Source: Nanohaloarchaea archaeon SW_7_43_1 (GTDB taxonomy: Archaea; Nanohalarchaeota; Nanosalinia; Nanosalinales; Nanosalinaceae). Taken from it: a stretch of DNA of 64,000 nucleotides. The notes under the pieces were generated by a model. It was not told the DNA's origin. It made no database searches and worked only from the letters and a program-made list of their open reading frames with translations. The stretch's first letter is position 1. The number at the start of each line of letters is the position of its first letter. Positions 25,023 to 41,690 of this stretch are shown here, piece after piece. A program made the position numbers and the translations under genes. Location of the stretch: assembly GCA_003009795.1 (NCBI GenBank), contig PXPE01000001.1:694739-758738 (forward strand), in the 5' to 3' direction.

Positions 25023-26723
25023 ATGAGCTCACAAAACACCGGTGATTCTCCAGAATTCGGTCACATCTTTGAGGTATATGATCACGGTAGCACGGGAGAA
25101 GCCGGTATAGCACCGGGAATTAGAGAGAAAATAGAGGAAGGCAGCATTCAAAGCCTTGAAGAGGTTGAAGAGGAGCTTGGAACCGATTTTCTGAGACCTA
25201 TAATGGGTGATCCTCATAAGACATTGAAGATATCCGCGGGTTCACAGGGATTGCCTTCTACATTTGTTATGGCTGCTGCTGACAAGTTTGATGACGATTG
25301 GGGCTGGGATGTTCCCAAAACAGAGGAAAGGGTTTTCGTTACGCCTCAAAGCCATCTCCACGATGAGTTCATGCAGAGAAGACAGCAAGCTGAACAGAGA
25401 GTAAAACAGGCAATGCAGGGAATCGAACAGTTAAGGAAAAACAAACACCTTTTACAACACGATATTAGAAAGCTGAGAGGAAAGGTCGAAAGTCTAAGAT
25501 CCGGAGAAGAGACAACTATCAAAGGAGATTTCATTGAACTTGTTGATAGCGCTGGTGGAGGACAGCAGGGTTCAGCACCTGGTTCACTGGATTTCCTGAG
25601 AAACAACAACATATATCCCTCGATTGTCGCGGATTTCCAAGAGATGGATTCACTCAATGACCTTCTCTCAGCAGAGAAAAAAGCTGAGAAACACGGGGGA
25701 GAACCATCGGAGTATCAGGCCGGTCCGCTTTCAAAACTTCCGGAGAACGAGAAAGCCATACTGAAAAAGAAATACGCAATGTACGAGAAATGGAAGGATC
25801 TCTATGGGAGCGAAATTGAGAGGAAACTGGATGACCTGAAAAAAGAACTCAGAAGAGTTGAAACAGGACTTGAAGAGCAGAAGAAACAGACTGCTCCCTA
25901 TGTCCGAGACATGGTTATGATTAACCAAAAAACTAATGAAGAATTAGCTGAGGATATGAACCGCTACTTCCAGTTCCAGGGAGATTCAACCACTTTCAAA
26001 CATATAGAGTTCATACCGCACAAACCCTTCAAGAAGGAACACGGCGAGTTAACCGAATGTGAAGAAGGAGAGGCCACACACTACAAGATTCTCTACATAC
26101 ACGGTGTCCACGTGAACATGGCTATAGGTGAAAATCCTCAATCACCTGCAGAAGGTCCTACAGCAGGACAAGTAGCTTACTTCCCCGCTCTGGTCGATAA
26201 GTTTACATTTGAGAATATCTTCAAGGAAAAAATTGAGAGACAGAAAAACAGGTTTGAGAACCTGATGGAAAACTATACCGGAAACTTCAAGACCGGTAAA
26301 GGCGACGAATTTCAGAAGAAAAGAGAGCAAAAAGAACTCTCAATCAGAAAACTCAGGGAAAAAGTAGGGAAAAAAGTCAGTGAGAAACGAGGAGAGGAAA
26401 TAGAGCCACCGCTCCAGTTCTCATCATCCATAAGAAGAATGGAAGATGGATTCGACCACCCCAACAAAATACAGAACGAATACGGTGAGGACTACATGGA
26501 AGCTATAAACGAAATACTAGACACCTCATATGGGAAGGAAAAAGACAGGACAGAAGGGCTTTCAGGGTTCCAGAAAAAAGTAAAACTGTTCACCGGTCAG
26601 GAAGACCAGTACTATCTTTCAGATGACTACCAAAACAAGATAATAGGGGATCTAGCATACCGCTTCAAATTCACTTACTACTTTGATCTGAAGATCAGTA
26701 TGGGTCTCTACACCATGAAATAA
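25023..26723 (+). CDS. Uncharacterised 566-residue coiled-coil protein
   Basis: No family recognised. Residues ~110-165 (DEFMQRRQQAEQRVKQAMQG onward), ~245-300 and ~395-460 are predicted long charged coiled coils. They flank regions with a mixed fold, including YKILYIHGVHVNMAIGEN and a conserved-looking N-terminus (FEVYDHGSTGEAGIAPG). No membrane segment or signal peptide. One base separates its stop from the start of the 844-residue gene, so the two products are probably partners. Confidence 0.75.
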   Translation: MSSQNTGDSPEFGHIFEVYDHGSTGEAGIAPGIREKIEEGSIQSLEEVEEELGTDFLRPIMGDPHKTLKISAGSQGLPSTFVMAAADKFDDDWGWDVPKTEERVFVTPQSHLHDEFMQRRQQAEQRVKQAMQGIEQLRKNKHLLQHDIRKLRGKVESLRSGEETTIKGDFIELVDSAGGGQQGSAPGSLDFLRNNNIYPSIVADFQEMDSLNDLLSAEKKAEKHGGEPSEYQAGPLSKLPENEKAILKKKYAMYEKWKDLYGSEIERKLDDLKKELRRVETGLEEQKKQTAPYVRDMVMINQKTNEELAEDMNRYFQFQGDSTTFKHIEFIPHKPFKKEHGELTECEEGEATHYKILYIHGVHVNMAIGENPQSPAEGPTAGQVAYFPALVDKFTFENIFKEKIERQKNRFENLMENYTGNFKTGKGDEFQKKREQKELSIRKLREKVGKKVSEKRGEEIEPPLQFSSSIRRMEDGFDHPNKIQNEYGEDYMEAINEILDTSYGKEKDRTEGLSGFQKKVKLFTGQEDQYYLSDDYQNKIIGDLAYRFKFTYYFDLKISMGLYTMK

Positions 26724-26724
26724 G

Positions 26725-29259
26725 ATGAAAGGACCGAAATTCATACTCAGCCGTTTGAAAGAGAACTTCGATGTCTCAGAGGAGGAAGAACAAGAAGGAT
26801 TCCCGGATATGAACTATGTGGTCGGAAACACTTCAGGGCTTGACGTAGGAAACATTCCGACACCGGTTGACAGGAGAATCGGAGATCAGGCCCAGATCGG
26901 TGGAAGCGCCATGGAGGTCCAGATATACAATCCCGCTACCTTCTCAATTGAAGGGGATAAGATAATAGATGTCGTTGACCAGCTTGGACTGGATATATCA
27001 ATACATAGTCAACCGAAGATGGGATACGCTTCAGCCTACAAAACCCAAGGACAGCAAGGAGTAGGAATCGGGACCGTCCACCCATATTTCACAAACTATC
27101 TTGAGGCAATGGCAAAGTTCAAGCAAAAGGCAGAGAGAAACGCCGATTTTGATATAGGGCGGATCAATCCTCACGCCTCTACCTCGCCGATGCCTCCCTT
27201 AGAGGAAAGAATGCCGATGGATGTTGGAATGGATCCTTTTGGCTTCAAGATAAATGGGTTAGATAAAGATGAACTGGATATGAGGGATAAGGCAAATAAG
27301 AGCATATTCAGGAATGAACAGTTTCTAGAAAAATTTTACAAAACGTTCTTATTGAAGAAAGCTGTAGACCGGCCCTGGCAACTCTACACTAACTTTCTTT
27401 CCAGGTACTCGGAAAAATTCGATCGGATATTCAGAGATGCGCAAAGACAGGCCTGCGACAATTTCTACGATATAGGTAAGGAAAGAATGAGAAATAAAGA
27501 AACAGAAGATCTTTTACAGGGTAAAGCTGCTCTAGTTTCTACAGCAGCAAGATCAGATGTTGGTGTACAAAATGTCTGGCTCGACCTTATATCAGAGAAA
27601 TGGGATGAGGATGAGCAGATAACTATAGAGATATCTATCCCTAGAACTGATAACTCCGATGAGATAACGATAGATAGTCTTGACTCTATCAATGAGATTC
27701 TTGGTCAGACAACTCGAGTATCAAGCCTTAGGACTCTGCCTGAGGCAATTTATAGGATTGAAAATAAAGAGTTCGAATACAGAAATCAATTTGAACTAAA
27801 GGATTTAGTTGACGGAGGAAAACTTGAGGCTATCTCACAGAAAGCTCTTAGCGATCTAAACAATAAACTCGATAAGATATGGAATGGTGACGGCGATAAG
27901 TTCCTGATCTCGGTGGAGGGTAAAAGAAGTGCTTTATCCAATCACCTGGATTATGACCCACAGAGGATAGTTCAGAAAGCTGAGGAATATGATGGTAATG
28001 ATTTCGATGAATCAGACGAAGATCCTTGGGAACTTGATAATGCTGCTATCAAGACCCTTAAGGGAGGGAAACAGTTCTTTGAAAGCGGAAGATACAGGGA
28101 GATGCTGAGGGCCTTAGGAAATCAGTATGAACAGCCAATGTGGATGGAATCAAATCTTTTCTACTATATAATTCCCTGCTGGATGTCATCTTCCTCTGCG
28201 GAAAACAAAAAACATGGGGGCTGGAATGCACCAGAATTTATCTGGAAGACATTGGTTGAAGATAAATGGTCTGAAAAGTATGAAATTGACCTGAAAGAAC
28301 CTGCTGCTGAAAACGGCTACTTCGATGCATTGGAGGAAAGCCATGAATTCAGGATGGACGTTGGGGCTGCGACTGCAGCCTGTTATGTCTGGGGTCACTT
28401 CACCCAGATGAGTTCTGAGTTCAACTCCGGTGAGTCGACATGGATGGAGTTCATGAACAAACATGGGATAGGTGTTAATCTTGAGGCAATGCACGGAAGC
28501 CCGAAGCAGTTACTGAAGCTGTGGAGGCCGAAAGACATCGCTACGGCCTCCCACGCCATAAATATTACAGCTAGGAACGAACTGGGAGATATACACCCCG
28601 AACTGGATAATTGCATAGCCAAGTTCACTATCGATATGGAACACGTTGCCAGCTTCGGTGCTAATCCCTGGAACCAGATGAAGGAGATGATTGAAAACGA
28701 GGAAAAAATAGCATCCTATGAAGACTATACAACAGGTATTGACCCTGAAAAACCATTAGCCAAGATCCTGAGACAGTACCACCTGATGAAGCCAGGAGTA
28801 GAATCACAGCAAGGAACATACCACGGACCCTTTAGAAAAGGTGATAAACAGCTTTATACCTGGATTTACCGTCTTGTGGAAGACGGATTCGCCCGGAACA
28901 AGGTGGAAAAGGCATCTTTGATGTATGAACAAGGTGAGGAAAAAGAGAGCACTATATATACCGCTAGGATAGCGATGAACATGATTGAACTGGGAATCGG
29001 GCCGGAGGAAGTCACTGTCGATAATGTTGACCCAAGCAAGGAAGAATACAGGGATGAAAGAGAGGCTCTTATAGCCCGTTTCTTCGGTATCGACAAGGCG
29101 AATTACAGCAAGGAGTGGGCCAAAATAGAGGAGCACGCTTTTGATCCGCTTAAAGGTTTGCTTGAGGCAGAAGAGTTTGGATATACATATTCTAGCAAGG
29201 CTTCTCTAGAACAGGGAGAAAACCGGCCAGGCGATTACATGGGAGAGGAGTATAGGTAA
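26725..29259 (+). CDS. Uncharacterised 844-residue protein with an apparent TIM-barrel (EndoIV/xylose isomerase-like) layout
   Basis: No family recognised with certainty. Short segments are suggestive of the AP-endonuclease/xylose isomerase barrel: LGLDISIHSQP near residue 90, IGRINPHAST near 145, and FTIDMEHVASFGANPW near 635 with His and Asp or Glu in ligand-like positions. Between these lies a very long insertion (about 170-560). The protein is acidic, soluble and has no signal peptide. It is much larger than the usual 250-400 residues of that superfamily. Encoded directly after the coiled-coil gene; converges on the DUF218 gene with no gap. Confidence 0.72.
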   Translation: MKGPKFILSRLKENFDVSEEEEQEGFPDMNYVVGNTSGLDVGNIPTPVDRRIGDQAQIGGSAMEVQIYNPATFSIEGDKIIDVVDQLGLDISIHSQPKMGYASAYKTQGQQGVGIGTVHPYFTNYLEAMAKFKQKAERNADFDIGRINPHASTSPMPPLEERMPMDVGMDPFGFKINGLDKDELDMRDKANKSIFRNEQFLEKFYKTFLLKKAVDRPWQLYTNFLSRYSEKFDRIFRDAQRQACDNFYDIGKERMRNKETEDLLQGKAALVSTAARSDVGVQNVWLDLISEKWDEDEQITIEISIPRTDNSDEITIDSLDSINEILGQTTRVSSLRTLPEAIYRIENKEFEYRNQFELKDLVDGGKLEAISQKALSDLNNKLDKIWNGDGDKFLISVEGKRSALSNHLDYDPQRIVQKAEEYDGNDFDESDEDPWELDNAAIKTLKGGKQFFESGRYREMLRALGNQYEQPMWMESNLFYYIIPCWMSSSSAENKKHGGWNAPEFIWKTLVEDKWSEKYEIDLKEPAAENGYFDALEESHEFRMDVGAATAACYVWGHFTQMSSEFNSGESTWMEFMNKHGIGVNLEAMHGSPKQLLKLWRPKDIATASHAINITARNELGDIHPELDNCIAKFTIDMEHVASFGANPWNQMKEMIENEEKIASYEDYTTGIDPEKPLAKILRQYHLMKPGVESQQGTYHGPFRKGDKQLYTWIYRLVEDGFARNKVEKASLMYEQGEEKESTIYTARIAMNMIELGIGPEEVTVDNVDPSKEEYRDEREALIARFFGIDKANYSKEWAKIEEHAFDPLKGLLEAEEFGYTYSSKASLEQGENRPGDYMGEEYR

Positions 29260-31691: not shown

Positions 31692-31805
31692 TTTTAATCT
31701 CTGACGGTTGATATAGATTTCTACTGATTTTATACAATTGTTTGGTTCAGGATGAATTCAAAGAAAGACTCTTAGATAGGGTATAGCAAAGAAAGAAGGA
31801 GCTAG
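31692..31805 (-). terminator. Probable termination region of the ATP synthase operon
   Basis: Directly after the atpD stop the transcribed strand carries a pyrimidine-rich run (CTCCTTCTTTCTTTG), as found at archaeal terminators. The rest of this gap holds the presumed Nudix promoter. Confidence 0.4.
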
Positions 31806-32432
31806 TTAATCCTGCATGTTTTTGACCTTCTTCATACGAAAGGTTTCCTCTCTTTCCGATTCTTCTAGTGACTGTGAAATCGTTTCTAATGCATCTTTCT
31901 GTTCAGGGATGACTTTGTGTTCAAGAGCGTTTACTCTTCTCTTGGTCTTCTCTATCTCATTGAGGAGTTTGAGTATCTTGGTCTGGGTTTCGGCGGCTTC
32001 AACTATTTTTTCAAGAAGTTTCTCGTACTTGTCGGCTACTGAGTCTATTCTGGAGGAAGCCGAAGTGATACCGTATTCCCTTTGAAGTATATTTGTGGAA
32101 ATCTTCTCTGTTTCTATCTCTGGCACAACTACTCCCATGATGTTCTGTGTCGAGGAAGTAATCTTCGGCTCGTCTTTGACTGGGAATGCGTTGGCCTGGA
32201 CCTTGTCCTCGCCGTCGTAGATCTTTGACATGAGAAGTTTTAGTTTTGCCTGTGAGTAAACGTCTGCAAGTTCTTGATTAACCTCTTTTGCATCTCCAGT
32301 TATTTCCATAAATTCGTGGATCAGGCCGTCCCTCTTTTTCTCAAGAATATTGTGTCCATTCTCGGCGAGTTCGATTCTTTCTTTAAGTCTTAACTCTTCC
32401 GAACGTGTTGGTTTGATATCCTGTGACATCAA
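31806..32432 (-). CDS. atpD: A-type ATP synthase subunit D (central stalk)
   Basis: 208 residues. PTRSEELRLKERIELAENGHNILEKKRDGL-type N-terminal helix and the long C-terminal helix (INEIEKTKRRVNALEHKVIP) form the antiparallel coiled coil that rotates inside the A3B3 head. The subunit links head rotation to the c-ring through C and F. Last gene of the operon; its start overlaps the stop of the 103-residue gene by four bases. Confidence 0.93.
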   Translation of the reverse strand: MMSQDIKPTRSEELRLKERIELAENGHNILEKKRDGLIHEFMEITGDAKEVNQELADVYSQAKLKLLMSKIYDGEDKVQANAFPVKDEPKITSSTQNIMGVVVPEIETEKISTNILQREYGITSASSRIDSVADKYEKLLEKIVEAAETQTKILKLLNEIEKTKRRVNALEHKVIPEQKDALETISQSLEESEREETFRMKKVKNMQD

Positions 32433-32740
32433 TTATCCCTCCTGTATTTTTCAATGTCTTCAATTTCGTTTTCAAGGTCGTAACTATCCGGGAGTTCGCC
32501 TTCAAATCTTATTGACTGGTACTGTCCTACAAACTGGCCGGGATCGGTATCAGGTGATGTCTCAAGTATGACTCCATATTTCCCATCATCATCCAGGTGA
32601 AGAACCGGAAAGAGATGGCCTCTAGAGTTCTCATCAGCTTTTCTGTACTTATCCAGATGATTGATATCAGACTGGTTGTGACCCATATCTCCCAGCAGTT
32701 CTTTTGCCATCTCCCAAGGTGTGTCGCAGATCTCTGTCAT
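32429..32740 (-). CDS. Uncharacterised 103-residue protein inside the ATP synthase operon
   Basis: No family recognised. Acidic, soluble, with a predicted N-terminal helix (PWEMAKELLGDMGH) and a small beta region (HLFPVLHLDDDGKYGVILETS). It lies between atpB and atpD, five bases after the former and overlapping the latter, so it is translated with the operon. Archaeal operons of this type usually pass straight from B to D; this may be an assembly or regulatory factor, but nothing in the sequence proves it. Confidence 0.7.
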   Translation of the reverse strand: MTEICDTPWEMAKELLGDMGHNQSDINHLDKYRKADENSRGHLFPVLHLDDDGKYGVILETSPDTDPGQFVGQYQSIRFEGELPDSYDLENEIEDIEKYRRDN

Positions 32741-32745
32741 CGACT

Positions 32746-34122
32746 CTAATCTCTGCCTGGAAGGTATTTTTCCCGGGTTTCAGGATCGATTCTCGTCAGT
32801 TCTGATTCAGGTACGATTGAAAGCAGCTCCCATGCAAGACCCATGGAATCCTCTATATCTCTATCTTCTCTGTTGCCCTGTCCAATGAACTCTTCCTCGA
32901 ACCTGTCCGCAAACTTGAGGATTTTTTCATCTTTTTCGGACAATGCATCTTCTCCGACAATCGCCACGAGATCTCTAAGCGATTCACCTTCAGCGTACGT
33001 TGCATACACCTGATCCTTAAGATCGCCGTGATCCTCTCGAGTATAGCCCTCTCCGATTCCGTTATCCATCAACCGGGAAAGACTTGGCAGGACATCGATT
33101 GGCGGCTTAAAGTCTTTGTTTTCAAGGTCTCTGTCAACAACGATCTGTCCCTCTGTAATATAACCGGTGAGGTCAGGAATTGGATGAGTGATGTCATCGT
33201 TTGGCATTGTCAGGATCGGGATCTGTGTGACCGATCCCTCTCTTCCTTCGATGATACCAGCTCTTTCGTAGAGGTTCGCCAGATCCGTGTACATATATCC
33301 CGGGTATCCTCTTCTACCCGGTACCTCTTCTCTAGCTGCAGATACCTCTCTAAGTGCGTTGCAGTAGTTAGTCATGTCTGTCATGATGACCAGTACTTCC
33401 ATATCCTTCTCAAATGCAAGATATTCTGCGGTTGTCAATGCCATTCTAGGGGTAATGATTCTCTCCGGTGCCGGATCTGAAGCCTTGTTCAAGAATACTA
33501 CAGAACGCTCAAGAGCACCTGTTTCTCTGAACTCTCTCATGAAATCCTGTGATTCCTCCTCAGTAATTCCCATACCGGCGAATACTACTGCGAACTCCTC
33601 GTCTTCTCCCTGTACATCCGACTGTCTTGCGATCTGCATAGATAGTTCGTTGTGCGGAAGTCCTGATCCTGAGAAGATCGGTAGTTTCTGTCCTCTTACC
33701 AATGTATTCATCAGGTCGATTGAGGAAATACCGGTCTGGATAAAGTCCTCGGGAAGCTCTCGGGAGTAAGGATTGATAGCCTCTCCCACAATATCTCTCT
33801 TCTCTTCCGGAATAATTTCCGGTCCATCGTCGATCGGTTCTCCTGTTCCATCAAGGATTCTTCCAAGAAGATCTTCGGTACACGGCATCTTGACATTCTC
33901 GTCCATGAAGCGGACGGATGCATCCTGGCCGATTCCCCTGGTATCCTCGTATACCTGGACAACTACTACATCCTTTGAAGTCTCCAGTACTTCCCCTTTC
34001 TTGACATTGCCATCCGGATCCTCGATTTCCACGATATCTCCATAGGCAACATCATCGGTTTTCTCCACAAATACCAGTGGTCCTTTAACTTCGTTTATCG
34101 TCTTGTATTCTTGTTGTGTCAT
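32746..34122 (-). CDS. atpB: A-type ATP synthase subunit B (non-catalytic)
   Basis: 458 residues. The P-loop is replaced by [18 protein letters not shown], as expected for the non-catalytic B subunit; [12 protein letters not shown] and the C-terminal Arg-containing segments follow normally. Forms the hexameric head with AtpA. The start overlaps the stop of a 14-codon upstream frame (ATGA). Confidence 0.97.
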
Positions 34123-34163
34123 TCTACATCACCCTGTAATGTCAATCCTAGAAAACTGTTCAT
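34119..34163 (-). CDS. 14-codon leader frame coupled to atpB
   Basis: ATG 34163 to TGA 34119-34121, encoding [15 protein letters not shown] strong ribosome-binding site (GAGGTGACC, overlapping the atpA stop) lies four bases upstream. The TGA overlaps the atpB ATG. The ribosome-binding site of atpB (GGGTGATG) is inside this frame. Confidence 0.6.
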
Positions 34164-34175
34164 TTTCGGTCACCT

Positions 34176-35933
34176 CTATTCCTCCACTACCTCTTCAAAC
34201 TCCTTGTCCATCTGTTCCCGGATTTCGGTTTTAAGTTCTTTATAGTCCTCACTAAACTTGAGTTCGGAGATCCTATTGGCCGAATCAAGAGAAACGATGT
34301 TCTCTACAAGTGCTCCTTCCTCAAGAGCCCTGTATGCATTGTCTCCCCAGTCAAGGATTAACTCCAAGACATCAAATGTTTTCTGAGGACTGGAGTATTG
34401 ATCAACGTCATCGAAAGCGTTCTGCTGCAGGTAGAACTGTTTGACCAAGTTAGCGATTCTGAGTGTCAGCCTTTCCCTGTCTGGTAATGCGTCTTTACCG
34501 ACAAGTTGTACCGTTTCCTGTAGCTCCCCATCTTTCTGGAGGATATCTCTCATTCTCTGGATATTCTCTGTCCAACCAGCATCAACTTCTTCCTCAAAGT
34601 GGTCTGAAAGCATATCGCTGTATCCCGAGTAGGAGTCATCCCAGTTAATTGACGGGAAGTGTCTTTTCTCCGCTAGATCCGAGTCAAGTGCCCAGAAGTT
34701 CTTAACAACTCTGAGCGTGTTCTGGGTTACCGGTTCCGAGAAGTCTCCGCCAGGAGGTGAAACAGCTCCAATAATAGAGACTGATCCCGGGTTATCGGGT
34801 CCGAGTGGTTTGGCTCTTCCAGCTCTCTCGTAGAACTCTGCAAGTTTTGATGCAAGGTATGCCGGGTACCCACGTTCGCCGGGCATCTCTTCGAGTCGAG
34901 CAGAAATTTCACGCATGGCTTCTGCCCAACGTGAAGTCGAATCCGCCATCAAGGCAACGTCAAGTCCCTGATCTCTAAAGTACTCTGCGATTGTGATTCC
35001 TGTGTAAATGCTGGCTTCTCTCGCAGCTACAGGCATGTTAGAGGTGTTCGCAATCAGTACTGTTCTATTAATGATTTTGTCCCCGGTCTGTGGGTCTTCT
35101 AGTTCTGGGAACTCTTCCAGTACCTCTGTCATCTCGTTTCCACGTTCCCCGCATCCAATGTAGACTATGATATCTGCGTCGGAGAACTTTGCGAGGCTCT
35201 GCTGTGTAACTGTTTTCCCTGTTCCAAAGCCTCCCGGTACCGCTGCTGTTCCTCCCTTTGCAATTGGGAACAGTCCGTCGAGAACTCTCTGTCCTGTAAT
35301 CAGTGGTACTTTCGGTTCGAGATCGTTTTCCACCTGCCTTGCCTCTCTGATCGGCCACTCCTGTCTCATTGCTACTTCTACGCCGTCGACTACTGCAACC
35401 GTCTCGGTGACAGTGAACTCTCCTTCCTTAATTTCCTCGACCTCTCCTTCAATTCCGGGCGGAAGAAGAACTTTGTGTTCTCCATAATCTACTTCTGTAG
35501 TCCCGATTACGTCTCCCCCGGTAACATATTTTCCTTCCTCTAAAGCGGGTTCGAACTCGTATTCTTCCTCCATGTCGATTCCAGGTGCGTCTTCACCTCT
35601 CTCGATGAATGCCCCTGTTTTCCCTTCAAGAGCCGGTAGAGGTCTCTGAAGCCCATCGTAGATTGATCCGAGAAGGCCTGGGCCAAGCTCTACGGAAAGC
35701 GGCTGCTCTGTGTTGTGTACGGTCTCTCCCGGTTTTACTCCTGTAGTGTCTTCATAGACCTGGATGTAGCTTTTGTCTCCTTCTATCTGGATTACTTCTC
35801 CCATCAATCCTTCTTCTCCGACCTTCACGACGTCGTTCATCTGAGGTTCCATGTTTTCAGCGATCACTACAGGGCCTGCTACCTTATAGATTGTGCCTTC
35901 TGATTCTGTGCTCTGGGTTTGTGTCTGTGTCAT
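34176..35933 (-). CDS. atpA: A-type ATP synthase subunit A (catalytic)
   Basis: 585 residues. [12 protein letters not shown] is the P-loop; the non-homologous region specific to A/V-type catalytic subunits occupies about residues 110-190 ([11 protein letters not shown]). Catalytic Glu lies in GERGNEMTE. Hydrolyses or makes ATP in the cytoplasmic head. Its ATG overlaps the stop of an 18-codon leader frame, and a small hairpin covers its ribosome-binding site. Confidence 0.97.
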
Positions 35934-35986
35934 TTTTCAAGTCCACCTGCTGGACTGAAGCTTGTCTTCAAGTTTTGAGTTTTCAT
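35930..35986 (-). CDS. 18-codon leader frame coupled to atpA
   Basis: ATG 35986 to TGA 35930-35932, encoding [24 protein letters not shown] at 35995-36000 is a good ribosome-binding site eight bases upstream. The TGA overlaps the atpA start codon as ATGA. The peptide begins MKT like the leader before atpE. Confidence 0.6.
35940..35956 (-). promoter_or_regulatory. Hairpin occluding the atpA ribosome-binding site
   Basis: The mRNA reads AGTCCA, loop GCAGG, TGGACT: a 6-bp stem with a 5-nt loop. The atpA ribosome-binding site AGGTGGA spans the loop and the 3' arm. Ribosomes moving through the overlapping leader frame would open it. Confidence 0.5.
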
Positions 35987-36014
35987 TTTAAGTTTCACCT
36001 AATAGTATTTGTTT

Positions 36015-36317
36015 TTATGATAGATCAATTCCGATTACCTTCTTGATTTTATCCTGTAGCTGGGAGTCCTCTGCTTTCTCTGATAACGCGACAACGACCG
36101 GGTTTACTGATTTATTGACATCGTTTCGAATTCTTTCTGGAAGTTCCTGTACATCTGATTTTTCGGCTACAACAATACCGAGTTCATCGCTCTGGATAAG
36201 TTCCTGGATTTTCTCCTTGTAGTTTTCTTTCCCGTATGTTTTTTGTATTCCTGCGAGTTCGAATCCAACTGTGAATTCACGTTCCCCGATTACTGCAATT
36301 GATTTCTTATCTTCCAT
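36015..36317 (-). CDS. atpF: A-type ATP synthase subunit F
   Basis: 100 residues. IAVIGEREFTVGFELAGIQ at the N-terminus and the following Rossmann-like pattern (GIVVAEKSDVQELPERIR) match subunit F of the central stalk, which binds D and affects ATP hydrolysis. It starts 10 bases after atpC ends. Confidence 0.92.
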   Translation of the reverse strand: MEDKKSIAVIGEREFTVGFELAGIQKTYGKENYKEKIQELIQSDELGIVVAEKSDVQELPERIRNDVNKSVNPVVVALSEKAEDSQLQDKIKKVIGIDLS

Positions 36318-36327
36318 GTTTGAGGCC

Positions 36328-37323
36328 TCAGGCTATTACCAAGTTTCTTTTGATTGTTTCCTGATTTTGTATACCTGTCTCTTTTGCCCGTATAAGCATT
36401 CTCAGGTTCTTGACTTCAACCATTTTGGCAACGATGTAGCCAAATACCGATGTTATTCCAAGAGGTTCTGTATGAAGTGTTCTGAAAGCTGATTTCAGTC
36501 TTTCTACTTCTATTGTCTTTTCTACCTGCTCTAAGTTTTTGTAGTCTCTGAACTGTATATCTTCACAATCCTCAACCTCTGAGATCGCCTCCTCAAGATC
36601 GGATGTTTGAAGGGTTTTCCGCACACATGTTGTTTCAGGTTCGCTGATCAACCAGTCTTCGATCTCCTCTGTTTCAAGACCGTATTTTTTCAGTCGAAGG
36701 ATTATCTTCAGGTTCTCACACTCAATCTCTTTTCTGATGAACCTCTGAAACCACATACCGATTGAATCAGCAAGCTCTTTCATCTCTGTATAGTAAGCTC
36801 TATCAAGATCTCTCTCAACTTTTCTAACATCACCGGTATTCTCAATGAATGACTGGTATTTCACATCGGAATCACTGAATTCTATCGAATTACAGATCTC
36901 CTCAAAGCTTTTCTCCGACAGTTCCTCCATTTCTTCAACTGTGTACTGGGCTACCGGTACAAGAAGATCCTTTACCTCGCCTTTTTCTTCTCCTTTTTTC
37001 CATCTAAGCAGTCTTTTCAGACTGAGGATATCGTAACGCCGCAAAAACGCGTTTATGACTGGATTAAGTGAATCCGGTGAGATATCTATCAAATTTGCCA
37101 TTGTTCTTGATACGTTTCTCATCAATGCAAGTTCCACGAGCTCTACCCCGTCGTGTTTCACGCCCAGTTCATCAATATCCTTCTTATAACAACCTTCCTG
37201 CAGCTTTCTCGCTATCTCGTTCGGCTCCATCTTGATAAGCTGGTCATAGTTACTCTCGTCCAGAAGTTTTGCTCCCTTAGCGCTAACTCTGGCGTACATG
37301 TACGGGTAGTCTCGTGATATCAT
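36328..37323 (-). CDS. atpC: A-type ATP synthase subunit C
   Basis: 331 residues. YMYARVSAKGAKLLDESNYDQL at the N-terminus and an all-helical body with a central repeat of about 110 residues fit the funnel-shaped subunit C (V-type d), which sits on the c-ring and connects it to D/F. A GAGGGATC ribosome-binding site precedes the ATG; 9 bases separate it from atpE. Confidence 0.92.
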   Translation of the reverse strand: MISRDYPYMYARVSAKGAKLLDESNYDQLIKMEPNEIARKLQEGCYKKDIDELGVKHDGVELVELALMRNVSRTMANLIDISPDSLNPVINAFLRRYDILSLKRLLRWKKGEEKGEVKDLLVPVAQYTVEEMEELSEKSFEEICNSIEFSDSDVKYQSFIENTGDVRKVERDLDRAYYTEMKELADSIGMWFQRFIRKEIECENLKIILRLKKYGLETEEIEDWLISEPETTCVRKTLQTSDLEEAISEVEDCEDIQFRDYKNLEQVEKTIEVERLKSAFRTLHTEPLGITSVFGYIVAKMVEVKNLRMLIRAKETGIQNQETIKRNLVIA

Positions 37324-37332
37324 TTTGATCCC

Positions 37333-37866
37333 TCAGAAAAGTATATCTGCCACGTCTTTGCGGTGTTCATCTTTCATCTGTTTAAGGATTTTGTCAAAGG
37401 TGAATTCCTGCATTCTGTTTCCGTCCTCAGAGAATATTTTGATTCCGTTGATATCTTTATTCTCTCTGAAATCTACATCTACTGCGTCTTCAAACTCAGA
37501 ACTACCTTCTACTCTTGCTACATCGAAATCCACTCTTTCAATACATTTTTGAGCAAATTTCTTCTTTTCTTTCTGTGTGAGTTTGTCAAGATAATGTCTG
37601 AACTCACTGAATACCTCTTTAATTTCATCCTGTTTTGCCTTCATCTTTTCTTCCTTTGCTTTCATCCGGGCGCTAGAGAGAGCTTTTTTCCTGTAACTTT
37701 GTTTCTCCTCTTCAAGCTCTTCCTCCATATTCTCATGAATCTGTTCAGCTTCCTTCTCAGCTTCTTCAATGATTCTGTCCCTTTCCTCTTCTCCTACTTC
37801 TACTATCTCATCCGATTTTTGCTCTGCTTTCTGCAGAATCTCTGATTTGATTTCTTCTAGTCCCAC
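37333..37866 (-). CDS. atpE: A-type ATP synthase subunit E (peripheral stalk)
   Basis: 177 residues, starting at GTG 37866. A long charged N-terminal coiled coil (residues 5-75) pairs with AtpH; the globular C-terminal domain holds to the head. The ribosome-binding site AGGTGAT overlaps the stop of a 25-codon frame upstream. Confidence 0.92.
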   Translation of the reverse strand: MGLEEIKSEILQKAEQKSDEIVEVGEEERDRIIEEAEKEAEQIHENMEEELEEEKQSYRKKALSSARMKAKEEKMKAKQDEIKEVFSEFRHYLDKLTQKEKKKFAQKCIERVDFDVARVEGSSEFEDAVDVDFRENKDINGIKIFSEDGNRMQEFTFDKILKQMKDEHRKDVADILF

Positions 37867-37873
37867 CAGTTTA

Positions 37874-37951
37874 TCACCTTAGGTCAACTGTTGCTCCACA
37901 TTCCGCTTTGCGGAAGTAGGCTTCGAATTTTGAATTTTCTGTCGTTTTCAT
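37874..37951 (-). CDS. 25-codon frame upstream of atpE
   Basis: ATG 37951 to TGA 37874-37876, beginning MKTTENSKFEAYFRKAECG. Unlike the other leaders it does not overlap its gene: the atpE GTG lies seven bases beyond the TGA. Its own ribosome-binding site is weak (AAGAGG). It spans a 6-bp hairpin at 37901-37915 (TTCCGC, loop TTT, GCGGAA on the plus strand). Confidence 0.45.
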   Translation of the reverse strand: MKTTENSKFEAYFRKAECGATVDLR

Positions 37952-38002
37952 AGTATATCTTTTTTCCTCTTACCGTATGCATATCGAAATAAATGAAGTT
38001 TT

Positions 38003-38024
38003 GGGAGAGCCTTGCGGCTCCCTC
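38003..38024 (-). promoter_or_regulatory. Stem-loop just downstream of atpK
   Basis: GGGAGAGCC-TTGC-GGCTCCC can fold into a 5-bp GC-rich stem (GAGCC/GGCTC) or a longer bulged one. It lies 10 bases after the atpK stop codon in the transcript, before the gap leading to atpE. It could stabilise or process the 3' end of the atpK message, raising the c-subunit ratio; it lacks a clear T-tract for termination. Confidence 0.4.
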
Positions 38025-38033
38025 TGAATTTTT

Positions 38034-38252
38034 CTAAATGAATCCTGTGGCAACCAGTGCGACTACTAGTCCGAAGATAACCATAGTCTCCGGGACAACT
38101 GTTAGGATAAGTACTTGCCCGAATAGGCTGTCGTCTTCCGCCAGAGCGCCAACTCCTGCGGATCCGATCTTTGCCTGAGCCCATCCTGTTGCAAGTGCTG
38201 CAAGTCCTATAGCTAGTCCTGCACCGATTGCTGTCATTCCTTCTACTGCCAT
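38034..38252 (-). CDS. atpK: A-type ATP synthase subunit K (c-ring)
   Basis: 72 residues, a single two-helix hairpin. Helix 1 includes GWAQAKIGSAG (Gln26) and helix 2 VVPETMVIFGLV with the ion-carrying Glu55. Sodium-binding rotors usually have Gln after the Glu-Thr pair; here it is Met, so proton coupling seems likelier, but this is inference. No signal peptide precedes the first helix. A 15-codon leader frame overlaps the start. Confidence 0.93.
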   Translation of the reverse strand: MAVEGMTAIGAGLAIGLAALATGWAQAKIGSAGVGALAEDDSLFGQVLILTVVPETMVIFGLVVALVATGFI

Positions 38253-38290
38253 TTTTGGATTTCACCTTGTGTTTTCTTGATTTTGAGCAT
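38243..38290 (-). CDS. 15-codon leader frame coupled to atpK
   Basis: ATG 38290 to TAG 38243-38245, encoding MLKIKKTQGEIQKWQ. Its ribosome-binding site AGGTGAG lies eight bases upstream. It reads ten bases into atpK in another frame before stopping, and contains the atpK ribosome-binding site AAGGTGAAATC. Confidence 0.55.
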   Translation of the reverse strand: MLKIKKTQGEIQKWQ

Positions 38291-38314
38291 ATTGGTTCTC
38301 ACCTATAGTATAAT

Positions 38315-40129
38315 TTAATTGGTTCCGAAAGGAACATATTTTCTGCCTCCTCCCTGATAGAACTTGCTGAACATTTCTACATAATGGAGTCTTATTCCTT
38401 GAAGGAAGCCTTCCATGATTTTGATGAATGTATTGAAAGTATGTCCGAACACTAACATAACCACTCCCAAAATAATTCCTATTACTGAGCCTGAGTGAAA
38501 TAATGGATCTGCTAGCCCATTCACCACCGCGGCCAGTGAGACCGCTGCGACCGAGACACCGAATATCCTTAGATAAGATAATACATTTGAAAGCAGAGAA
38601 GGTATCTCTACAACACCCTCTATGCCTTCTCCAAGGTAGAGAAGTGCTATTGAGATCGCTATCACCGGAGCTCCTGCCGTTGCGCCGATAAAGTACCATA
38701 GAGCTGTACCTGCCTCAAGCATCAACCAGCTCCCTTTCTCAAGGAATGCTTGTTTGAAGCCATGTTTAACATGCTCATTATAGAATCCGAGCAGGTACCC
38801 TGCGTTAACGTGTACCAGTCCGATCAAAGCTGAAATCGTGAATACCTGACTTAGGTGTTCTGCCCTATGGAATAGGATCGGTATCTCTTCGAATAGATTT
38901 ATGCCTGTCAATGCGGCCAACTCCGAGTGATGGCCAAATATGACATAACCAAAAGCATCCCCGAAAGCCAGACCAAATAATATAGTTGCAACTGATGCAT
39001 ACATCAGTGATTTGAAAATATCTGCCACACCCGGGAACATCTTCATACCGGCGTAGAAGACAGCGAGTGATGTTAGACCGTAACCTGCGTCCCCGATCAT
39101 GAAACCGAAGAACAGCGGAAATGTAAGTAAGATTACGAAAGATGGGTCAAGCTCATTATAACTTGGAACTGAGACCAGGTCAGTTAGATCCTCGAAATGC
39201 TTTACTGGCCCAGGATTATTGTGCTTTACGGGCGGTTCGTCTCCTTTTTCCTGTTGAATATGTATCTTTCCTTCAGTCACCTGAGCAAGTCTTTCCTCTA
39301 ATTTTCCATAATTTTCTGTCGGAACCCATCCTTTCGCAAAGAAAGCTGATTCTGTTGTCGCAAAGTTTATCGGTGCCTCAGCTTTCTCCACCTTCTCAGT
39401 CATGAACTCTTCTACTTCCTCAAGACTTGCTTTCCACTTAACTGAGAGACGTTCAAGTTCTTTCTTCCTGTTTTTTCTCTTTTCTTCTAATTCCTCTAAC
39501 ATGTCGCCAAGTTTTCGCTCTATTTCGGAGACATGGCCTGATAAACCAATATCAGGAACCTCAAATATTTCTTTGGAAATATCATCAATCGCGTTGTCGA
39601 ACTCTTTTTCGTCAGGATAAAATAATACATCAGCTCTATTCCCTTCCATCAACTCATATCTCTCATCCGGAGCTTCTACCTCGAATTCTTCTCTATTGAT
39701 TTTTCCCACAAAACATTCGAGTTCCTGCGTCCCATCCAAGTCTCTGTAGTCAAGATTGAGATTTGAAACCTTCCTGAAAAAGTCTCTTTGGTTCTTAATA
39801 TCGTTGATCCGAGATTCAAGATCTGTTACGTCGTCTTCAAGACTATCTATTTTCCTATTGATTTCTGGTATTTTCTCATCAACGTCTTCATATCCCAAAT
39901 CGGAAAGCTCTGATTTATCTGTTTCAGGTAGCTTGGATAGAAGTGATCTGAGATCAACCAAGAGCTCTGAGATTTCATCACCTTCCTCGAACGTCTCTCC
40001 TGTGTCAAGCTCTCCAGAGTAACCTTCTATGTCAAGAAGTTCAAGGTCATATAGCTCCTCGATGACAGGTCTCAAATCTCTCTTGAGTCCCGTAATGGAT
40101 AACTTGGTCATTTTGGCTGGTTTTATCAT
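38315..40129 (-). CDS. atpI: A-type ATP synthase subunit I (a subunit)
   Basis: 604 residues. The first 320 form the cytoplasmic domain with coiled coils (DVTDLESRINDIKNQRDFF); the rest contains about seven to eight membrane helices. SNVLSYLRIFGVSVAAVSLA holds the essential Arg facing the c-ring Glu. Ion channel half of the motor. The ATG is preceded by AGGTGACC and lies 10 bases after atpH. Confidence 0.95.
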   Translation of the reverse strand: MIKPAKMTKLSITGLKRDLRPVIEELYDLELLDIEGYSGELDTGETFEEGDEISELLVDLRSLLSKLPETDKSELSDLGYEDVDEKIPEINRKIDSLEDDVTDLESRINDIKNQRDFFRKVSNLNLDYRDLDGTQELECFVGKINREEFEVEAPDERYELMEGNRADVLFYPDEKEFDNAIDDISKEIFEVPDIGLSGHVSEIERKLGDMLEELEEKRKNRKKELERLSVKWKASLEEVEEFMTEKVEKAEAPINFATTESAFFAKGWVPTENYGKLEERLAQVTEGKIHIQQEKGDEPPVKHNNPGPVKHFEDLTDLVSVPSYNELDPSFVILLTFPLFFGFMIGDAGYGLTSLAVFYAGMKMFPGVADIFKSLMYASVATILFGLAFGDAFGYVIFGHHSELAALTGINLFEEIPILFHRAEHLSQVFTISALIGLVHVNAGYLLGFYNEHVKHGFKQAFLEKGSWLMLEAGTALWYFIGATAGAPVIAISIALLYLGEGIEGVVEIPSLLSNVLSYLRIFGVSVAAVSLAAVVNGLADPLFHSGSVIGIILGVVMLVFGHTFNTFIKIMEGFLQGIRLHYVEMFSKFYQGGGRKYVPFGTN

Positions 40130-40139
40130 TGGTCACCTG

Positions 40140-40457
40140 TTACTGAAATTCTTTCTCAAATCTTTCCTTGAGGAAATTTTCTGCATTTTCAAAGTTCTTG
40201 GAGGCTTTTTCTCTAAGTTCTTCGGCTTCTTCACGTCCTATACCCACTATTTCTTCTCTCTCCTCGTTTACTTCGTCCTTGAATTCGTTCATTCTCTTCA
40301 GTTTCTCTTTTTCTGCGTCTTTTTCAGCTTCTTCCACTATTTCAGAGGCTTCTTCTTTCGCTTGTTCAACTATTTTTTCTTTCTTTCCTTCAGCTTCCTG
40401 GACAATCGAACCAGCATCCTTCTCCGTTTTTCGAACCTGCTTCACAACGTTCTCCAT
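40140..40457 (-). CDS. atpH: A-type ATP synthase subunit H (peripheral stalk)
   Basis: 105 residues from ATG 40457, a single long coiled coil (KTEKDAGSIVQEAEGKKEKIVEQAKEE-like) that pairs with AtpE. A frame starting at 40517 would add 20 residues that cross the TATA box (TTTATAATT on this strand), so the shorter start is preferred. First gene of the operon. Confidence 0.88.
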   Translation of the reverse strand: MENVVKQVRKTEKDAGSIVQEAEGKKEKIVEQAKEEASEIVEEAEKDAEKEKLKRMNEFKDEVNEEREEIVGIGREEAEELREKASKNFENAENFLKERFEKEFQ

Positions 40458-40589
40458 CGTTAGAACACCGTTATTAGTTCGTGTAGCTAGAACAATTATA
40501 AACCCTATGAGCTCCACCTACGAAGATCTATTTAAAAAGCTTTCACCGCAGGCGATCTGAATAAAAAAATCGGCCTAACCTAATTAGTT
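40458..40589. promoter_or_regulatory. Divergent promoters of the ATP synthase operon and trm1
   Basis: Minus strand: GGGTTTATAATTG centred about 40 bp before the atpH ATG, giving a leader of roughly a dozen bases with GGTG. Plus strand: GAATAAAAAAATCG about 27 bp before the trm1 ATG, suggesting a leaderless transcript. Confidence 0.5.
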
Positions 40590-41690
40590 ATGAAGGAGAG
40601 AGGTTTCGAAGTATTTGTACCTGAGGAAGATGAGCCGTCCAAAGACTCAGAGGTATTCTTCAACGACAAAATGAGAAACAACAGAGATATATCAGAAATA
40701 GCGGGCAGAGTGTTTAAAGAGAAGACCGGAATCGAAAATTTTGCGTCATGCGATGCTCTCTCTGCTTCTGGTATTAGAGGATTCCGCTACTCAGAGTTCT
40801 CGGATCAGCTTTTAATTAACGATACAAATCCTGAAGCAGTTGAAAGCATTGAGGAAGGACTGGAAGCAAATAAAGTTGAAGCAGAAGTTTCCAGCAAGAA
40901 CGCGAATATTCTACTATCGGAGAACAGAAACCGGTTCCACTTTATCGATATTGATCCTTTCGGTTCATTCCTCGAGTTTCTTGATTCAATGGTTCGAGCC
41001 TCCAACCATACCAGTTTTGTAGGATTATCTGCAACCGACAACTCAGTGACCTCCGGAAGCTACAGGAAAGCATGTATGAGAAGGTATAATTCCACGCCAT
41101 TAAAGAACAGTTTCATGCATGAGACAGGGTTGAGAATCTATATCAAGGAAGTCTTCGAGAACTACGCCAGGTTCAATATGAGCTTTGATCCTAAGGTATG
41201 CTGGCATGAAAGACATTACTCCCGGGTAATGGGGCGGGTGACAGAATCAAAGAAGAGAGCTAATAGGGAACTGGAAAATATTGGTTATCTTTCGTTCTGT
41301 CCAGAATGTAGATGGCGGAAACTGGAAAAATTCGATGATTGCAGGAACTGTGGAAACTCAGAGTTGAAAGTCGCAGGACCTCTCTGGACGGGAAAATTAA
41401 GCGACCAGAGATTTACTAAGGACATGAAGGATGAGATACCGGAAGAAGAATGGGAGGATAGTCACTCAATGCTGAAGAAAATCCATAACGAAGCAGAGAT
41501 CCTGACACCTTTCTACGACCTTCACGAACTGTGCTCAGTAATGGGTGTACAGGTACCGAAAAGAGAGAAAGTAATTGATGCAATCAGAGAGAAAGGCTAT
41601 CCTGTATCAAGAACACATTTCTCACCAACAGGTTTCCGAACCGATGCACCGATAGACGATATAAAAGATATTATTCGGGAGCAACTTTGA
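40590..41690 (+). CDS. trm1: tRNA (guanine26-N2)-dimethyltransferase
   Basis: 366 residues. The SAM-binding part shows ASCDALSASGIRGFRYS and IDIDPFGSFLEFLDS (DPFG catalytic region), then LSATDNSV; a C-terminal zinc-type cluster (CPEC, CRNCG) and KVAGPLWTG are typical Trm1 features. Methylates G26 of tRNAs with AdoMet. Complete and of usual length. Confidence 0.94.
   Translation: MKERGFEVFVPEEDEPSKDSEVFFNDKMRNNRDISEIAGRVFKEKTGIENFASCDALSASGIRGFRYSEFSDQLLINDTNPEAVESIEEGLEANKVEAEVSSKNANILLSENRNRFHFIDIDPFGSFLEFLDSMVRASNHTSFVGLSATDNSVTSGSYRKACMRRYNSTPLKNSFMHETGLRIYIKEVFENYARFNMSFDPKVCWHERHYSRVMGRVTESKKRANRELENIGYLSFCPECRWRKLEKFDDCRNCGNSELKVAGPLWTGKLSDQRFTKDMKDEIPEEEWEDSHSMLKKIHNEAEILTPFYDLHELCSVMGVQVPKREKVIDAIREKGYPVSRTHFSPTGFRTDAPIDDIKDIIREQL

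Follow-up and report, generated by a model that had tools for sequence, protein, structure and literature searches.

Short frames in the gaps of the ATP synthase operon

The window analyzed, a 64,000-nt stretch of the genome of Nanohaloarchaea archaeon SW_7_43_1 (G000:C1:694739-758738; related genomes are designated G001, G002 and so on), carries on its minus strand an archaeal A-type ATP synthase operon with the gene order H, I, K, E, C, F, A, B, a 103-aa open reading frame (ORF) and D. Four of the gaps are wide, I-K (62 nt), K-E (167 nt), F-A (81 nt) and A-B (53 nt); the remaining ones measure 10 nt or less. Each wide gap holds a short leader frame on the minus strand, at the position where a previous sequence-only reading had placed it. 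We consider it probable that the leaders of atpA and atpB, and less surely that of atpE, are copies of a cis-element dispersed in the family Nanosalinaceae that acts as a translational-coupling bridge: ribosomes probably pass from gene to gene via mini-genes of 14-25 amino acids that touch the next start.

The Shine-Dalgarno (SD) sites and the frame ends also agreed with that reading: the leaders of atpA and atpB overlap the following gene by ATGA, the atpK frame ends at +10, and the atpE leader, which has no SD, ends at -7. About 6% of shuffled gaps contained a frame by a relaxed definition (ATG, 14-30 codons, end at -7 to +10 relative to the next start), and four out of four by chance has a probability of about 1e-5, a post hoc estimate. 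Support is good for the leaders of atpA and atpB, moderate for that of atpE and weak for that of atpK. G001 shares the atpE frame; that of G002 is a different frame. The atpK frame is confined to the genus of the window (G000/G001), and its overlap with atpK, previously taken as a sign of coupling, is not evidence for it, since atpK begins with conserved codons (ATGGCAGTAG) that dictate where the stop falls.

Table 1. Positions, within the window, of the genes, leaders, SD sites and hairpins of the ATP synthase operon.
Feature	Position	Strand	Remarks
atpB	32746..34122	-	
atpB leader ORF, 14 codons	34119..34163	-	ATGA overlap with atpB; orthologous bridging frames in G001, G002, G003, G010, G015
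Palindrome 2 of atpB leader, ACATTACagGGTGATGT	34126..34142	-	contains atpB SD; G001/G015 version: ACATCACaagGTGATGT
Palindrome 1 of atpB leader, GAAAAtgaacagTTTTC	34151..34167	-	covers leader ATG
SD (GGTGA) of atpB leader	34170..34174	-	
atpA	34176..35933	-	
atpA leader ORF, 18 codons	35930..35986	-	ATGA overlap with atpA
Palindrome 2 of atpA leader, AGTCCAgcaggTGGACT	35940..35956	-	contains atpA SD; compensatory AGTTCAgcaggTGAACT in G001
Palindrome 1 of atpA leader	35956..35971	-	
SD (GGTGA) of atpA leader	35995..35999	-	
atpE	37333..37866	-	GTG start
Hairpin around atpE SD, CAGTTgACCtaaGGTgataAACTG	37867..37890	-	partner bases co-changed in G001
atpE leader ORF, 25 codons	37874..37951	-	peptide MKTTENSKFEAYFRKAECGATVDLR then stop; no SD (ATACTATG context); ends 7 nt before atpE GTG
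Hairpin directly after atpK, GGGAGCCgcaaGGCTCTCCC	38003..38022	-	outside leader element; hairpin at same place in nearly all relatives
atpK	38034..38252	-	
atpK leader frame, 15 codons	38243..38290	-	peptide MLKIKKTQGEIQKWQ then stop; weakest case, no palindrome
SD (GGTGA) of atpK leader frame	38299..38303	-	resembles ancestral atpK SD
103-aa ORF, between atpB and atpD	32429..32740	-	kept in G001; no NCBIfam match

The hairpin that follows atpK is strong in the relatives, is often of the form GGGCC..GGCCC and precedes a T-rich stretch; it may act as a 3' stabilizer or a partial terminator serving the abundant K subunit. A search of positions 31700-40700 of the window with Rfam covariance models gave no match at E values up to 1.

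The same junctions in related genomes

ATP synthase operons of the same family and of some outgroups were compared. Gene order was conserved and gap lengths were variable. Genomes without a leader showed a plain initiation context, such as AGGTGATCAACAATG upstream from atpB in G009; in leader-bearing genomes an SD and an ATG are retained at the ancestral place and tens of extra nucleotides precede the gene's own ATG. On this comparison, the wide gaps are lineage-specific insertions located just after the ancestral start-codon context.

Leaders were found upstream from atpA in G000, G001, G002, G003 (two in tandem), G008, G011, G015 and G016, and upstream from atpB in G000, G001, G002, G003, G010 and G015. 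Their ends read ATGA, TAATG or TGATG (for atpA of G002, the TAATG start and the in-frame ATG chosen by the script were placed one base apart, and the script gives -1). Where the atpA and atpB gaps persist in relatives, the frames are likewise open and overlapping, in very different sequences, and are not the broken frames by which the sequence-only reading would have recognized chance. Upstream from atpA, atpB, rpoB2 and pheT, a bridging ORF was present in 30 of the 32 long gaps of the Nanosalinaceae, compared with a mean of 3.8 and a maximum of 10 in 1000 shuffles; these sequences are related and do not amount to 32 independent cases. The atpA gap of G003 was scored as a miss although it is bridged by two tandem leaders, and its inclusion gives 31/32. 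The claim that every wide gap is filled holds in the genus of the window; in most relatives no such frame occurs in the K and E gaps.

Other features were observed in these operons. Different ORFs sit between atpA and atpB in G006, G011 and G020, and AtpA of G004 (G004:C1:174895-178215) contains an intein-like interruption of about 1.5 kb inside a single open frame of 1109 aa.

A dispersed element with two palindromes

A genome-wide leader scan, using a simple gene caller, covered G000, G015 and 400 kb at the beginning of G003. It found 8 SD-led leaders with ends at 0, +1 or +4 in G000, 12 in G015 and 5 in the G003 part, against 0.13, 0.39 and 0.13, respectively, in shuffles. When the SD was not required, upstream ORFs in G000 showed little excess (12 versus 8.75 in shuffles), hence the signal in this genome depends on the SD. 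The bridging mini-ORFs are thus confirmed and more widespread than previously claimed, the ATP synthase being one case among many junctions.

The recurring element consists of two tandem palindromes and reads as an SD-led leader ORF of 14-20 codons. Palindrome 1, typically GAAAATC-nnn-GATTTTC, is located at the leader start; a linker of about 8-14 nt separates it from palindrome 2 (e.g. GAAAACA-cagg-TGTTTTC), which includes the SD of the next gene. The 3' end of the element is TAATG, ATGA or TAA directly followed by ATG at the next start: the overlap is -4 (ATGA/GTGA) in some copies, and -1 (TAATG) and 0 are common too. Most leaders start between -4 and +13 nt from the upstream stop (in G000 and G015 the atpA leader lies about 28 nt away), and therefore appear to be coupled at both sides. 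Identical palindromes are read in different phases, the frames still being open and the peptides unlike (MKIADFRSSRKQGVFN; MTENQRFSGHAKDRGGL).

Palindromes were also counted independently of ORFs, and G015 contained 52, versus 9-14 under a Markov model, 39 of them in co-directional gaps. The search model R1, in which only hairpin 1 pairs, was trained on start-proximal copies, so that matches outside the training set weigh most. Of its 31 matches, 29 had a gene start on the same strand no more than 20 nt from their end (random expectation about 2.3%), and a bridging ORF accompanied 28 of these 29. R1 matches occurred in 14 of 19 Nanosalinaceae genomes, with 21 in G015, 16 in G003 and 9-11 in G002, G005, G008 and G010. 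Outside the family, two sister-family genomes had 3-4 matches each, a third nanohaloarchaeal family gave one weak partial match, and 32 other archaea together gave two weak matches.

The genes downstream from palindromic elements or bridging leaders are largely complex subunits. Those confirmed by Pfam are uS7, eS24, Spt4, Rrp41-type RNase PH, eS27, uL2, uS3, uL24, uS14, uL30, Top6A, uS11, PheT (leaders in G000, G001, G005 and G008), uL14, uL5, uL23, uL10, an RPAB4 zinc ribbon (RpoP-like) and a transketolase-type (E1 beta-like) subunit; the ribosomal-protein junctions of other relatives are known as R1 matches alone, without their sequence. A bridging leader precedes rpoB2, which follows rpoB1, in all 13 Nanosalinaceae that have the gap. 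Palindromes are mostly absent from these leaders, which indicates that mini-ORF coupling extends beyond the palindromic element.

Pairing of the SD GGTG was counted in 40 elements: the T was paired in 32 and the G after it in 36, and up to six pair types were seen beyond the SD; the pairs of hairpin 2 were scripted from each sequence's own predicted fold, and the count therefore leans towards paired. RNAalifold applied to a MAFFT alignment recovered hairpin 1 alone, because the arms of hairpin 2 differ in length. The last 34 nt of the elements had a mean z of -1.94. Between G000 and G001, the atpA hairpin shows a compensatory change on both sides (C-G to T-A) that alters two residues of the peptide, and the hairpin differences between these two genomes keep the pairing and mostly change the peptide.

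Several related structures were noted. In G015, a full palindrome element at 26722-26795 has no same-strand gene start within 80 nt and is perhaps a relic left after the downstream gene was lost or moved. A similar stretch (ATGAAAGGTGGACG..., followed by two GAAA..TTTC palindromes) occurs in long gaps of G015 (near 670717) and G003 (near 372928), and is possibly a conserved non-coding RNA. GAAAA..TTTTC hairpins lie beside apparent tRNA genes in G015 (near 156577 and 417509) and G003 (near 41104 and 391248). Inside operons of many relatives, SD-less start codons recur in the context AATACTATG / GATACTATG where the leaders of atpE, atpA, atpB and rpoB2 begin, the nested starts of the rpoB2 leaders included; this context is possibly an SD-independent initiation signal.

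Proposed translational coupling, its alternatives and known systems

In Haloferax and E. coli, termination-reinitiation coupling is almost gone at a separation of about 20 nt, and overlapping gene pairs are enriched for complex subunits (PMC10666635). The proposed bridge would ferry terminating ribosomes over a gap too long for this process. Placed between two co-transcribed genes, it would begin at the stop of the first gene or a few nucleotides past it, with an SD and a start codon of its own. A ribosome ending the first gene, or freshly loaded at the leader SD, would translate the leader and thereby open hairpin 2, which holds the SD of the next gene; it would then terminate over the next start codon and reinitiate, the leader peptide being a by-product. 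The sequences themselves show the anatomy, the open and overlapping frames, the conserved pairing, the dispersal and the restriction to the family; from these we infer that the leaders are translated and that reinitiation follows, with a benefit through ratio control or polarity avoidance.

The sequence-only reading had proposed translational coupling or leader peptides. Coupling is the best reading, the frames being open and overlapping in the relatives; a function of the peptides is not supported, since their sequence and phase differ between orthologous junctions. Its suggestion that the leaders set the A3B3:K subunit ratios did not stand: the element also precedes ribosomal-protein, RNA polymerase, PheT and Top6A genes and is missing in many relatives, a genomic distribution that speaks against ratio control specific to the ATP synthase.

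Several observations weigh against the bridge. Many relatives have no element at the same junctions (atpA, atpB, atpK or atpE). In G000 the palindromes are within expectation (27 versus 21-31) and the copies of the element are degenerate. The predicted accessibility of the SD is not lower in the elements than in other genes (about 0.48 versus 0.46, not significant), so that blocking of independent initiation by the hairpin is unsupported, and SD sequestration was rejected as a measurable effect.

The elements could quite possibly be passenger insertions resembling the mycobacterial repeats discussed below, which spread by copying into start codons and are tolerated since coupling happens to survive in copies with an open frame, with no regulatory benefit to the host; the mechanism would be shared with the bridge and the reason for its presence would differ. 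Near-identical copies at unrelated junctions of G015 (MKIADF type) are consistent with such spreading, as are the clean filled and empty sites of sister genomes (e.g. G015 versus G009 at atpA and atpB) and the RpoB2 tree, on which presence and absence of the element switch three or four times at each locus, unpolarised and including a switch between these sisters. However, the Y1/RAYT transposase (PF01797) was absent in 27 of 27 relatives, while control genomes gave matches, which speaks against REP/RAYT mobility; palindromes are few in convergent or divergent gaps, and compensatory change keeps the pairing after insertion.

It is unlikely that the leaders are mere gap fillers, keeping the RNA covered by ribosomes and avoiding factor-dependent polarity. 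FttA is probably behind archaeal polarity (PMC12548453), but this explanation accounts neither for the conserved hairpins nor for the exact overlap with the next start, and an ORF is absent from many gaps of comparable length. Intergenic hairpins for RNA processing or stability, with incidental open frames, would agree with the palindromes that lie close to tRNAs and in certain 3' regions lacking an ORF; they are improbable given the bridging ORF in nearly all start-proximal R1 matches and frame ends within a few nucleotides of the next start, far above shuffles. An Erm-like attenuator, in which a ribosome stalled in the leader would let arms 2 and 3 (UUUUC/GAAAA) pair anew and release the SD, is suggested by the four GAAAA/UUUUC-like arms of the commonest element type and is highly improbable, since the peptide is unconserved, the phases differ and some element types, that of atpB among them, have arms 2 and 3 that are not complementary.

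A more far-reaching version of the coupling bridge, in our view doubtful, is a portable structured coupler that spreads in archaeal genomes and sets subunit stoichiometry in core complexes (ribosome, RNA polymerase, ATP synthase, PheRS, Top6); its copies might form a single regulon in which a common factor recognizes the GAAAA...UUUUC tandem hairpins.

Termination-reinitiation needs an overlap or a very short spacing, and this lineage appears to restore coupling across long gaps by means of a mini-ORF. The natural copies, empty sites and compensatory changes form an experimental set for separating coupling from hairpin opening in archaeal subunit ratios. They also suggest that ORFs of 14-20 codons in DPANN archaea can be real and yet below the length used by gene finders.

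A literature search, not exhaustive, found no description of bridging leaders in any archaea, nanohaloarchaea included. Ribosome delivery by short ORFs has been described in review (PMC12548453), and mini-ORF bridging at core-complex genes would be convergent with a mycobacterial repeat and with an engineered device. Mycobacterial interspersed repetitive units (MIRUs) are apparently mobile repeats that insert at start codons, with an internal ORF coupled to the next gene (PMC12548453). Compared by description, the present element is likewise a short dispersed repeat at start codons, with an ORF that is probably coupled, found at many operon junctions; it differs in being archaeal, in its pair of palindromes, the second of which contains the SD, and in ending at -1 or 0 besides -4. 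The leader layout, with a first SD, a short ORF, a second SD inside it and an overlapping stop and start, has the anatomy of the synthetic bicistronic design (BCD), in which a leader cistron of about 17 codons carries SD2 in its 3' end and reinitiation takes place (PMC5995908). Unlike BCD, the present leaders are natural, lie between operon genes, are dispersed and have conserved hairpins.

The stop and start a few nucleotides apart, with an SD upstream from the start, match the archaeal termination-reinitiation layout. In Haloferax volcanii, overlapping pairs share with the leaders the -4/-1 overlaps, the SD in the upstream ORF and the complex subunits (PMC6728339, PMC10666635), but there two real genes overlap, whereas here a mini-ORF is interposed. 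In the erm and trp attenuators the regulatory peptide is conserved, while the present leaders differ in peptide and phase. In bacterial structure-mediated coupling, upstream translation opens a structure at the downstream start (PMC6728339), as is proposed here; in the bacterial case the ribosome that does the opening is the one translating the upstream gene, and here it would be one on a dedicated leader ORF.

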